Origin: a virus
Virus record (IMG/VR): IMGVR_UViG_3300020392_000098
Span: 1-21,320 of that record
Strand: one strand, 5' to 3'
DNA: 21,320 nucleotides
Shown piece by piece: positions 1 to 3,635 of this stretch. The translations under genes were made by a program, and so were the position numbers. The first letter of the stretch is position 1; every line of letters begins with the position of its first letter. The notes under the pieces were generated by a model. The model ran no database searches, was not told where the DNA came from, and was given only the letters and a program-made list of their open reading frames with translations.

Positions 1-609
1 CGCTCAAACGTTCGTCGTTTCTTCGCTTCCAACCCAAGTGATGAGTATCTAGTTGAGCACTTCCGTGGACGCATGGTCAACGAAGCTCAAAACATGTATG
101 CCATCGCTGGTCAGGTTGCCTCCTCTGATCCTTCTACAGATGTAAAAGACTTAGAACTTCTAAGCCGTCAAGCTATGGACGAAGCAAAGCACTTCCGTAT
201 GGTAAAGGAAGTAATCGAGCACATCACAGGTGAACCACTTGATGTTGCTGCTGCATTCGCTGCTGAAGCAGAGAAACCTCAAGCAAAAGGTGCTGAACTT
301 TTAGATAAGTACGAAGCATCAGAAGATGAGGCAGCACTTGCTGCATACCAATTGGTAGCAGAGGGCAGAGCAGAAGCAGTATGGAATGAAATGGGAGAGT
401 GTGTAAACGACAAGTTTATCTCTTCACGTTACAAGACTATTGCAAAGGATGAAGGGTTCCACTCAAACTTAGGTGGACGTGCACTTTCTAGACTTGTAGA
501 GGGTAATGCAGAATTACAAACTCGCATCCTAGATATGGTAGAGAAAATGAGAGCAGATCTTCTTGAGATCTCAAACAAGAACACTGCTACTCCTTTAGCC
601 GTGATCTAA
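1..609 (+). CDS. Ferritin-like di-iron protein (5' partial)
   Basis: The frame is open from base 1, so the start lies upstream; 202 residues are visible before TAA at 607-609. The protein is predicted all-helical and carries the six-ligand pattern of ferritin-like di-iron carboxylate proteins. Counting from the first visible codon, there is a Glu at 28, an ExxH at 61-64 (EAKH), Glu at 121 or 125, and a second ExxH at 151-154 (EGFH). The Glu-to-ExxH spacing is about 30-33 residues in both halves, as expected for a four-helix bundle with two metals. Known members include oxidases, hydroxylases and iron-storage proteins; the sequence does not say which reaction is carried out here, and MiaE-like or PaaA-like hydroxylases are only analogies. 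The gene converges on, and overlaps by 23 nt, the leftward gene ending at 587. A metabolic or iron-related accessory gene is the likely role. Ferritin-like fold fairly sure, function unknown. Confidence 0.7.
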   Translation, partial: RSNVRRFFASNPSDEYLVEHFRGRMVNEAQNMYAIAGQVASSDPSTDVKDLELLSRQAMDEAKHFRMVKEVIEHITGEPLDVAAAFAAEAEKPQAKGAELLDKYEASEDEAALAAYQLVAEGRAEAVWNEMGECVNDKFISSRYKTIAKDEGFHSNLGGRALSRLVEGNAELQTRILDMVEKMRADLLEISNKNTATPLAVI

Positions 610-1204
610 AAGGTTTACGACCTTTACGGATTTCTTTATCTAACCAGTGCTCTTCGCACGGATAAACATACTTATGGTTGGCATCGACAGTTACAAAATT
701 GTCGATGCCTTCTTTTGTTATAGGAAACTCTAATATTCTTCCAAGATATTCTAAATATTTCTCCTTATACAAGAAGAATGCCTCATGATCAATGAAGTGA
801 ACTGCTAGATCTTTATAGTAATCTAGAGCAATATCCATAGTCACTTCACCACCCACACGTCTTTGTTGTAGTTCATTTATATTTCTATCCCTTACAATGA
901 CTGCTATGATTGGCATCACACCGAGAGATATTGCCTTGCGAGCAACCTCACATATTTTTGGTGTTTGTCTTACACCATCATAGAAGAATGGCACAGATAC
1001 ATTTGCACAGAAAAAGTCTCCCTCTGGAAACTTAAGTTCATCTGGATATACCCAATATCTTGCAAAAGGTTCCTCATCACTTGGCACCCAATAATTATCT
1101 TTGAGTGAATCCCAACCCTTTACATTAGGATGTGCTGAGAATAGTCTTGCAAATAAATGATTACCTGACCCTTGAGGTCCTGTCACTATCAATAATTTTT
1201 TCAT
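587..1204 (-). CDS. P-loop/sulfotransferase-like protein A
   Basis: This 205-aa protein starts with a hydrophobic strand and a glycine-rich loop (TGPQGSGNH, residues 8-16) like the PAPS-binding loop of sulfotransferases or a relaxed Walker A. Then come an HP motif (25-26) and, after a second hydrophobic strand, an RDRNINELQQRR block (105-116) that resembles the sulfotransferase 3'-phosphate-binding segment. The ATG at 1204 is chosen over the longer frame from 1255 because the paralog ending at 1379 starts MKK at the same alignment position and the 17 extra residues have no counterpart. No good Shine-Dalgarno precedes 1204. The gene overlaps the end of the membrane-protein gene by 44 nt, so translation is probably coupled. 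A nucleotide-dependent group transferase, perhaps modifying host or phage glycan or lipid, is inferred. A kinase-like activity is the main alternative. Confidence 0.6.
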   Translation of the reverse strand: MKKLLIVTGPQGSGNHLFARLFSAHPNVKGWDSLKDNYWVPSDEEPFARYWVYPDELKFPEGDFFCANVSVPFFYDGVRQTPKICEVARKAISLGVMPIIAVIVRDRNINELQQRRVGGEVTMDIALDYYKDLAVHFIDHEAFFLYKEKYLEYLGRILEFPITKEGIDNFVTVDANHKYVYPCEEHWLDKEIRKGRKPFRSRLKE

Positions 1205-1394
1205 AAGATGGTGGAATGTGATGATCGTTCCAATGTCTGATGTTACCACCGACAATAAAACAGTTTGTAATTATAAGTTGTAGGAAGATGAAGGTTCTAA
1301 TAATAGCGACATAATCTGCTTCTCTATCTGTGTTGCCTGACTTGTCACCTAATGCCTTTGCCCATATCCTCCATACCTTTAGCAACAACCGCAA
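1161..1394 (-). CDS. Small membrane protein, TTG start
   Basis: A 77-aa protein with one long hydrophobic segment (about residues 28-50, YVAIIRTFIFLQLIITNCFI), a charged amphipathic N-terminus and a polar C-terminal tail. I chose the TTG start at 1394 because a perfect Shine-Dalgarno, AAGGAGGT, lies at 1408-1401 on the same strand, with ideal spacing and no competing ATG in frame. It overlaps the end of the upstream gene (2164-1379) by 16 nt and the start of the downstream one by 44 nt, which places it inside a leftward three-gene operon. It is probably a single-pass inner-membrane protein. The flanking paralogous P-loop proteins suggest, without proof, that they act together at the membrane. 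No function is recognised. A gene caller requiring ATG could miss it. Confidence 0.65.
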   Translation of the reverse strand: MRLLLKVWRIWAKALGDKSGNTDREADYVAIIRTFIFLQLIITNCFIVGGNIRHWNDHHIPPSYEKIIDSDRTSRVR

Positions 1395-2164
1395 TCAGGA
1401 ACCTCCTTTCCTGTAACAATTTCGTGTCGATATGAACGGGGATCTGTAGGATCCCATTCACCTGTGGCATTTGTGCCCTCTTCATCGAATGGATGATCTC
1501 TATCTCTTGTCGGTTGTTTCTCACGTATGTTAGGATTCCAAGGAGAAGGAACACCTGTCTTATTACAATCATCTAATGGACTGTCCTTGATATAATCAAT
1601 ATACTTTGCATTTGCATCTAACTCCAATATCTCTCTAATTTTGTCTCTCTCATACCATGCGATAGGTATACCTATGTCTAGTGATTTTAAATATTCCTCT
1701 TTATACAGATATAATAACTCATAACTCAGAAACTGTGGTTTCTCAAACTTTGGTAATTGGTCTAGGAAGTGTCGTATCGTAGACTCTTCTCTTATTCTTT
1801 TTTGTTGATTTTCTAGTATGTTTTGATCCCTTCCTATAACTAAGATCTTAGTTTTTATACCCGATCTTTGTGCATTCATGCAAAACTGCATCACGTTTGG
1901 ACTCCATTTCGTCCCTTTACTTTCTATGCCAAGTGGGATACTAATCGATGTAAAGTAATATTGACTTTGTGACCAGTCGAATTTATGCAGTGTTTCTGGA
2001 TTTCTCCAATACTCTGCAAAGGGTTCGCTAAAACGATGTGCTTCCCAATAATTATTAAGCAATGTTTTCCAACCAAAGACATCTTGGTGAAGTGATAAGA
2101 TTTTAGACCAAAGGTGGTTGCCCGAACCTTGCGGTCCCGTGAGCACGACAAGTGTCTTCTTCAT
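1379..2164 (-). CDS. P-loop/sulfotransferase-like protein B
   Basis: This 261-aa protein is a paralog of the one at 1204-587. Both start MKK plus a hydrophobic strand, then GPQGSGNHL (residues 10-18 here), then a GW..L..NYW stretch, an EPFA.YW block and a RDxNIxExQQ(K)R block (112-123 here). The layout matches sulfotransferase-type P-loop proteins, with nucleotide-binding loop and 3'-phosphate segment, though no catalytic histidine can be assigned with confidence. Protein B is longer: its C-terminus adds about 50 polar residues and ends in a cysteine cluster, DCGCC, which could bind metal or be modified. The start at 2164 follows an AGGG element 9-12 nt upstream. It is the first gene of the leftward operon and is served by the promoter at about 2187-2215. 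Substrate and reaction are unknown. Confidence 0.62.
   Translation of the reverse strand: MKKTLVVLTGPQGSGNHLWSKILSLHQDVFGWKTLLNNYWEAHRFSEPFAEYWRNPETLHKFDWSQSQYYFTSISIPLGIESKGTKWSPNVMQFCMNAQRSGIKTKILVIGRDQNILENQQKRIREESTIRHFLDQLPKFEKPQFLSYELLYLYKEEYLKSLDIGIPIAWYERDKIREILELDANAKYIDYIKDSPLDDCNKTGVPSPWNPNIREKQPTRDRDHPFDEEGTNATGEWDPTDPRSYRHEIVTGKEVPDCGCC
1401..1408 (-). promoter_or_regulatory. Perfect Shine-Dalgarno deciding a TTG start
   Basis: The minus strand reads AAGGAGGT here, 6 nt before the TTG at 1394. It is the strongest ribosome-binding site noticed in the window and lies inside the 3' end of the preceding coding region. Most other phage genes here have weak or no such site. Confidence 0.75.
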
Positions 2165-2186: not shown

Positions 2187-2215
2187 ATTATAACATAAAT
2201 ATCCTTGACTGTATA
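2187..2215 (-). promoter_or_regulatory. Sigma-70-type promoter for the leftward operon
   Basis: On the minus strand there is an extended -10, TGTTATAAT (hexamer at 2192-2187), and 17 nt upstream TATACA (2215-2210), matching 4 of 6 consensus -35 bases. Transcription would begin near 2180, leaving a leader of about 16 nt before the ATG at 2164. A host-sigma promoter suggests early expression of the operon. It overlaps the rightward late promoter region. Confidence 0.5.
2194..2201 (+). promoter_or_regulatory. T4-like late promoter (CATAAATA)
   Basis: CATAAATA matches the NATAAATA late-promoter motif of T4-like cyanophages and the T4 consensus TATAAATA. It would drive the fibre-like gene at 2250, with a start near 2207 at the edge of the palindrome. 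It abuts the -10 of the opposing promoter at 2187-2192. Confidence 0.65.
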
Positions 2216-2223
2216 TACAGTCA
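2206..2223. repeat. 18-bp perfect palindrome in the divergent control region
   Basis: TGACTGTATATACAGTCA is its own reverse complement over all 18 bases. It covers the -35 of the leftward promoter and begins near the expected start of the rightward late transcript. It could be a dimer-bound operator or, as RNA, a 6-bp stem with an AUAU loop at the mRNA 5' end. The sequence alone does not decide between them. Confidence 0.6.
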
Positions 2224-2249: not shown

Positions 2250-3635
2250 ATGGCATCACCCGTAATTAAGATAAAGCGTTCTGCTGTGCAGGGGAACGCA
2301 CCCACCGTTGAGCAATTAGAACTAGGTGAATTAGCACTAAACACGTATGATGGTAAACTCTTCACAGAAATTAATACTGGTAGTGCATCGATAGTAGAGA
2401 TAGGGTCAAACTTAAATACCCTACAAGTAAACACAATAACTTCAAATGTATCATTTACAGCAGATGTAACTTTTACAGGTGATGATTATAATGTCGTTTG
2501 GGATAAAAGTGATAGTTCATTAGAATTTGCAGACAATGCAAAAGCAGTTTTTGGTGCAGGTTCAGATCTTTCCATATACCACACAGGAAGTCATTCATTT
2601 ATTGATGATACAGGCACAGGTAATCTAAAGGTTAGATCAAATAATTTTAGAATATCAAACGGAGATGAGTCAAAATTATATGGGGCATTTACACCTACAA
2701 CAGTAGAATTATATAACAATAATACAAAACGTTTTGAGACCACCTCGATAGGTGTGAATGTAACAGGGCATAGTGAATTAGATAATATTAAATCGGTTGG
2801 TATTGCAACTTTTAGTAATGATGCTATACATGCAAACATATATTCAACTGGTGTATCAACTATATCAGGATTTAGATTCCCTACCTCAGACGGGAGTTTA
2901 GATCAAGCTTTAGTTACAGATGGAAGTGGTTCTCTCTCATTCAAGACTCTATCAGGTGGTGGAGGAGGTGCAGCAGGTGCTGCAACAACAATCTCTGCAG
3001 GTATCACTACAGCAACACAAGGACAAACAGTATTCTCCACACCTCATCCTCACAATGATGGTACAGACACTTTTAGTGCTCAAGTCTTTGTAAATGGTAT
3101 AAAGCAAAGACCACAAGGAGCTGGTGCGACAAAAGACTTTACAACATCAAGTAATTCTACAATAACATTTGAGGAAGGGATAACTGCAGGTAGTGAGGTT
3201 GTTTCAATTGTTTATTTTGGACATACAATTGATGAGGAATATTTTACTGCAACAGAAGGTCAGGTTCTTTTTCCTCTAAGTGGGAGTTTGTCAGCACAGA
3301 AAAACTTCCGTGTGTTTCTTAACGGAGTAAAACTTAGAAGTGGCACAGACTATGGTGTTTCTGCTCCTGTGACCTTAGTGACAGCATGTGCAGAGGGTGC
3401 TCATGTAGAGATAGTCTGTGATAATGCAGAGGATGCTTTTGTCGCCACAGATCAACAAACAAACTTCACACCCACATCATCCGATATATCTTCAAGTAAT
3501 ATGCAGGTGTATGTAAATGGTGTGCAACTATTCAAAGGTCTTGATTTTACTATTGGAAGTCCGTCTGTAACTTTGGTGGATGCAAATGCTGCTACAGTTG
3601 GTGATGAGATAGATGTTTGTATCAGACGTTCATAA
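2250..3635 (+). CDS. Fibre-like virion structural protein
   Basis: A 461-aa modular protein. Residues 1-50 form an N-terminal module with the LELGELALNTYDGKLF signature that is frequent in tail-fibre-like proteins of marine T4-like phages. Residues about 51-235 are beta-rich and contain SDLSIYHTGSHSFIDDTGTG (105-124). A glycine/alanine linker (236-244) leads to three tandem C-terminal repeats, about 252-323, 330-391 and 397-459. Each reads roughly T.GQ..F, then V(F/Y)(V/L)NG, then a short loop, a D(F/Y) pair and a final hydrophobic strand. This is a common fibre beta-domain. No Shine-Dalgarno is visible before the ATG at 2250; the late promoter at 2194 and the downstream gene 13 support late expression. 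Probably a virion appendage or baseplate fibre subunit. No receptor specificity can be inferred. Confidence 0.72.
   Translation: MASPVIKIKRSAVQGNAPTVEQLELGELALNTYDGKLFTEINTGSASIVEIGSNLNTLQVNTITSNVSFTADVTFTGDDYNVVWDKSDSSLEFADNAKAVFGAGSDLSIYHTGSHSFIDDTGTGNLKVRSNNFRISNGDESKLYGAFTPTTVELYNNNTKRFETTSIGVNVTGHSELDNIKSVGIATFSNDAIHANIYSTGVSTISGFRFPTSDGSLDQALVTDGSGSLSFKTLSGGGGGAAGAATTISAGITTATQGQTVFSTPHPHNDGTDTFSAQVFVNGIKQRPQGAGATKDFTTSSNSTITFEEGITAGSEVVSIVYFGHTIDEEYFTATEGQVLFPLSGSLSAQKNFRVFLNGVKLRSGTDYGVSAPVTLVTACAEGAHVEIVCDNAEDAFVATDQQTNFTPTSSDISSSNMQVYVNGVQLFKGLDFTIGSPSVTLVDANAATVGDEIDVCIRRS

Follow-up and report, generated by a model that had tools for sequence, protein, structure and literature searches.

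The leftward genes of the window

The window analysed here, the whole viral record of 21,320 bases, carries T4-type virion genes and, near its beginning, a short set of genes read leftward (Table 1). The major head protein gp23 was assigned to phrog_138 by profile search of the window (E 4.5e-169), and its nearest kin belong to a marine single-cell virus and to cyanophages. Photosystem (psbA-type) genes were found in two long relatives (two in G001, one in G003) and none in the window, which is a fragment. From the psbA-type genes of these relatives, the closest group is the cyanophages, and the T4-type gp23 of the window together with the photosystem genes of its relatives places it among T4-like cyanophages.

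The leftward genes B, M and A overlap one another (B and M by 16 nt, M and A by 44 nt) and are bounded by a tail-fibre-like gene (2250-3635) on one side and by the 3' end of Fer (609) on the other, where Fer converges with A and the two 3' ends overlap by 23 nt. Terminase, gp13-like, gp23 and other virion genes run rightward. The open reading frames thus confirm the layout described in an earlier sequence-only reading, a leftward three-gene set with overlaps on both sides of M and opposed to the virion genes, and its claim that A and B are paralogues holds as well: they are 37% identical over 191 aa (E = 1e-35) and share the blocks GPQGSGNHL, NYW, EPFA.YW and RDxNIxExQQ.R that it had named. 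As a listed open reading frame, A extends to a TTG at 1255, upstream of its ATG, and would then measure 222 aa. The dN/dS values of A and B against their relatives (~0.03-0.12) indicate strong purifying selection, and both are therefore real, constrained genes. B is extended at its C-terminus, and the tail of this extension is Cys-rich in most members. In a tree of 56 diverse members, all B sequences stand apart from all A sequences, with weak support (0.49), so the duplication is probably older than the split between cyanophages and other phages.

The TTG start of M lies just behind a strong AAAGGAGG site within the end of B. Ten relatives share with the window, upstream of B, a TATGTTATAAT-type site and a palindrome of the ACTGTATATACAGT type, the core of the palindrome (TGACTGTATATACAGTCA in the window) being kept with small changes. 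This conservation suggests that the leftward genes are probably transcribed from a promoter of their own, and the palindrome is possibly its operator.

Table 1. Features at the beginning of the window.
Feature	Position	Strand	Description
Fer	1..609	+	di-iron ferritin-like protein; 5'-truncated by the record boundary
A	587..1204	-	predicted sulfotransferase-fold protein; 205 aa from ATG
M	1161..1394	-	small membrane protein, phrog_1679; 77 aa, TTG start, strong SD
B	1379..2164	-	paralogue of A; 261 aa, ATG start; C-terminal extension ending DCGCC
Promoter-like site for the leftward genes	2187..2215	-	TATACA, 17 nt, TG-TATAAT; kept in 10 relatives
Palindrome TGACTGTATATACAGTCA	2206..2223		perfect, 18 bp; overlaps the -35 region; possible operator

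Predicted fold of A

A was modelled with AlphaFold2 (pLDDT 89), and the model was compared with known structures by two methods. In Foldseek, tyrosylprotein sulfotransferases with bound PAP took the lead (E 2.4e-4 for TPST1), and in VIA-align ranks 1-9 were all sulfotransferases, with TPST1/2 as the best structural match (Z 10.9 for TPST1, 156 residues, 3.0 A). The predicted fold of A thus fits the sulfotransferase-like assignment of the sequence-only reading. The lead over nucleotide kinases is modest, the first other structure being a nucleotide-type kinase at Z 9.6. Profile searches of Pfam, NCBIfam and PHROGs gave no sulfotransferase match for A or B, none was found in Pfam across 52 members of the A/B family, and neither PADLOC nor a sequence search of the PDB gave anything useful for A and B.

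The loop GPQGSGN is almost invariant in the family and holds no lysine, and Asn-His stands at the position of the kinase P-loop Lys-Ser/Thr in 52 of 52 members. The residues R105-D106...Q113-Q114 are likewise invariant and may be the counterparts of PAPS ligands. ATP-using kinases need the Walker A lysine, and the loop of A therefore argues against an ATP kinase. A rival view takes A and B for P-loop kinases or nucleotide-binding proteins and not for transferases of the sulfotransferase type; it would accord with the kinase structures that follow closely in the ranking (Z 9.6 and below), but the invariant Asn-His and the nine sulfotransferases at the top of that ranking make this reading improbable.

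A conserved gene set and the pathway it may encode

Fer, which converges with A throughout the cyanophages, has weak Pfam matches to the RNR small chain, PaaA and AurF, and its profile gave only weak symerythrin matches in the PDB (E 0.17); its di-iron ligands (E50, E83xxH86, E143 and E173xxH176) are invariant in 11 diverse members. A methyltransferase gene adjoins Fer; some cyanophages have two S2 proteins ahead of the methyltransferase. S2 is a second sulfotransferase-like protein: Sulfotransfer_3, the sole Pfam family found, matched 10 of 50 members, and a PDB fold search with its model (pLDDT 88) mixed kinases and sulfotransferases in the ranking.

We surveyed the neighbourhood of A in loci that were the best matches of the scans, among the matches listed, deduplicated by A sequence; loci retrieved with the window's own proteins are termed cyano-type, the host being shown for two contigs only. 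Among the matches listed, A, B, Fer and the methyltransferase were present in all 34 deduplicated cyano-type loci with enough context. In the other phages and bacteria (72 loci among the matches listed), A is accompanied by Fer in 70, by the methyltransferase in 63, by S2 in 63, by an amidotransferase (GATase) in 55, by a 2OG-oxygenase-like protein in 35, by a cupin in 29, by B in 23 and by an APS-kinase-like protein in 18. No locus of these 72 held both B and the cupin (Fisher p 3e-7, uncorrected for phylogeny), and no cupin was found in the cyanophage contigs tested. The A/B set recurs in other phages, in keeping with the accessory system that had been proposed from the sequence. Separately, a membrane protein of 76-77 aa other than M (WYIKYASA..HVNGWTPWNSF) recurs in the module of other phages (L243 6085-6318, L289 4966-5196), and genes resembling tripartite tricarboxylate transporters lie within the module of several phages (L115 1269-2243, L183 7561-8541, L272 5325-7917).

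IMG/VR contains at least 578 encoded relatives, while tblastn with A, B and Fer found no match in 50,697 phage records and tblastn with the A protein of Massilia found none in deposited phage records. Fer, the cupin and A stand in a row in two Burkholderiales genomes, Massilia atriviolacea and Janthinobacterium sp., the only two of 392 Oxalobacteraceae genomes with A. In Massilia, we read the genes that follow this row as AhpC- and AhpF-like. Near the Janthinobacterium row, S2 and the methyltransferase have a sulfatase-like gene (PF00884, E 3e-17; L126 1480-2823) as their neighbour. No description of the module was found in the literature. Hundreds of uncultured phage contigs carry the module, as do at least two bacterial chromosomes, and it is apparently undescribed.

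We propose a phage tailoring pathway in which A and B act as group transferases with a sulfotransferase fold and whose conserved core is A, Fer and a SAM methyltransferase; we regard this proposal as evenly poised between right and wrong. In cyanophages, this core is always joined by B and often by S2. Fer would act as a di-iron oxygenase or oxidase on a small or glycan-linked acceptor, the methyltransferase would then methylate the same acceptor, and A and B would each transfer a charged group to it, most simply sulfate from host PAPS. The product would be a modified host-surface or virion molecule, serving for example to block superinfection. Within this scheme we infer the 3'-phosphonucleotide donor, the order of the steps, the acceptor and the purpose. 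Host PAPS is the simplest donor for the window; the search of three cyanophage contigs turned up no APS-kinase-like gene, so any PAPS used there would need to be supplied by the host.

The gene content of the other phages brings in a different donor. A and B might be phosphoramidate-type transferases that use a 3'-phospho-CDP-amidate-like analogue of PAPS, made by the amidotransferase and the APS-kinase-like enzyme of the module, on the model proposed for the O-methyl phosphoramidate (MeOPN) capsule modification of Campylobacter; 3'-phospho-CDP-amidate itself is an intermediate of that pathway (PMC6429109; PMC3907429), the former paper providing the precedent for the donor. Among NCBIfam families, the five module amidotransferases that were scanned match gamma-glutamyl-CDP-amidate hydrolase best (NF045546, 48-105 bits), with a top score of 105 bits versus 53 for the next family, and the frequency of this gene beside A in the non-cyano loci listed also favours the phosphoramidate reading, as do matches above cut-off to the APS-kinase-like family PF01583 (12 of 19 contigs), whose substrate is putative. 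Every one of the five amidotransferases scanned, however, scores far under the curated NF045546 cut-off of 250 bits. Moreover, no PPDK_N domain, such as a glutamine kinase should have, was found in 16 module-bearing phage contigs, with the control positive in 13 of 14 genomes, and A and B persist in cyanophage contigs without the kinase or the amidotransferase, the latter being absent from the three tested. We therefore consider a phosphoramidate donor for A and B unlikely.

The acceptor could also be the phage itself. Tail-fibre-like genes flank the cyanophage module on either side, which would suit transferases that modify the virion or tail fibre and so alter the phage's own proteins; yet the module has no tail-fibre genes next to it in other phages, and the same core is present in bacterial chromosomes, so that we rate this rather improbable. 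A broader proposal is that uncultured T4-like phages make an unusual activated group (e.g. phosphoramidate) and attach it by means of sulfotransferase-fold enzymes from a non-PAPS 3'-phosphonucleotide donor, with di-iron oxidation, thereby changing the surface of the infected cell, and that B and the cupin are interchangeable for one step; we offer it as a long shot. For the tailoring pathway built on A, Fer and the methyltransferase, the constant gene set makes a directly testable pathway. Were the host surface modified, it would be a multi-enzyme system for superinfection or receptor change, and were the donor not PAPS, known sulfotransferase-fold chemistry would be extended.

The slot between B and A, and comparison with known systems

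M belongs to phrog_1679 ('Rnf-Nqr'; profile search, E 1.2e-32, residues 6-68); its relatives occur in 215 phage records, almost exclusively of cyanophages, where they frequently neighbour replication genes, among them that of the clamp loader. We surveyed the slot that M occupies in 66 deduplicated loci of the cyano type that carry A as well as B, among the matches listed: the slot was empty in 28 and held M in 18, and other contents were a bilin reductase, a pyrE-like gene, a cytidylyltransferase with an oxidoreductase, TRAP components and unassigned genes. The trio singled out by the sequence-only reading thus does occur elsewhere, but its description as a self-contained unit is not supported, since the slot is so often empty and the constant partners (Fer, the methyltransferase and often S2) lie on the other strand and beyond the coordinates of the trio. 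The natural unit is the core of A, Fer and the methyltransferase, not the B-M-A trio. M is probably a passenger, one of a number of alternative inserts that can occupy this slot; the survey led us to reject M as an essential partner of A and B. That B-M-A is nonetheless the functional unit, with an A/B complex anchored by M, is very unlikely: the gene overlaps have the geometry of translational coupling and the trio is kept in the 18 loci, but the slot is vacant or holds unrelated metabolic genes in others, and cyanophages that lack A and B commonly carry M.

Two further features of the slot were observed. The bilin reductase genes are of the ferredoxin-dependent type (L066 5384-6001, L082 5332-5961). 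In some cyanophages, including L086, L099 and L106, the slot holds proteins of 310-380 aa with a P-loop-like start (FILFLG.G.SATTPL) and no Pfam match, in several alongside a TRAP solute-binding gene.

In comparison with known systems, M is 90% identical to its P-TIM68 homologue, and phrog_1679 members elsewhere lie beside replication genes such as that of the clamp loader, whereas M here lies between B and A. PAPS sulfotransferases (TPST1/2, Sulfotransfer_3) share the predicted fold of A over ~156 residues and, like A, have a P-loop with a conserved H(P).V stretch after it, and a conserved RD motif. Their sequence families, by contrast, have no detectable match to A, and the basic residue usual in their 5'-phosphosulfate loop is missing from GPQGSGNH, so that PAPS use by A is not assured. 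Cyanophage auxiliary metabolic genes are likewise metabolic genes set among virion genes; the present case differs from them in being a co-conserved module of several genes, with key families that match nothing among deposited phage records.

The C. jejuni MeOPN capsule pathway comprises Cj1415-Cj1418 and the transferases Cj1421/Cj1422; Cj1418, the glutamine kinase, bears a PPDK_N domain. The phage module differs from it in the lack of this domain in the 16 contigs searched and in its additional di-iron and cupin enzymes, and the cyanophages tested differ further in having neither amidotransferase nor kinase. Because of the missing PPDK_N domain and of the cyanophages without these two genes, we do not claim membership in the MeOPN pathway. 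In the non-cyano phages, the features shared with it are a methyltransferase, an enzyme resembling APS kinase, transferases potentially able to use a donor of the PAPS type, and an amidotransferase whose closest family is gamma-glutamyl-CDP-amidate hydrolase.
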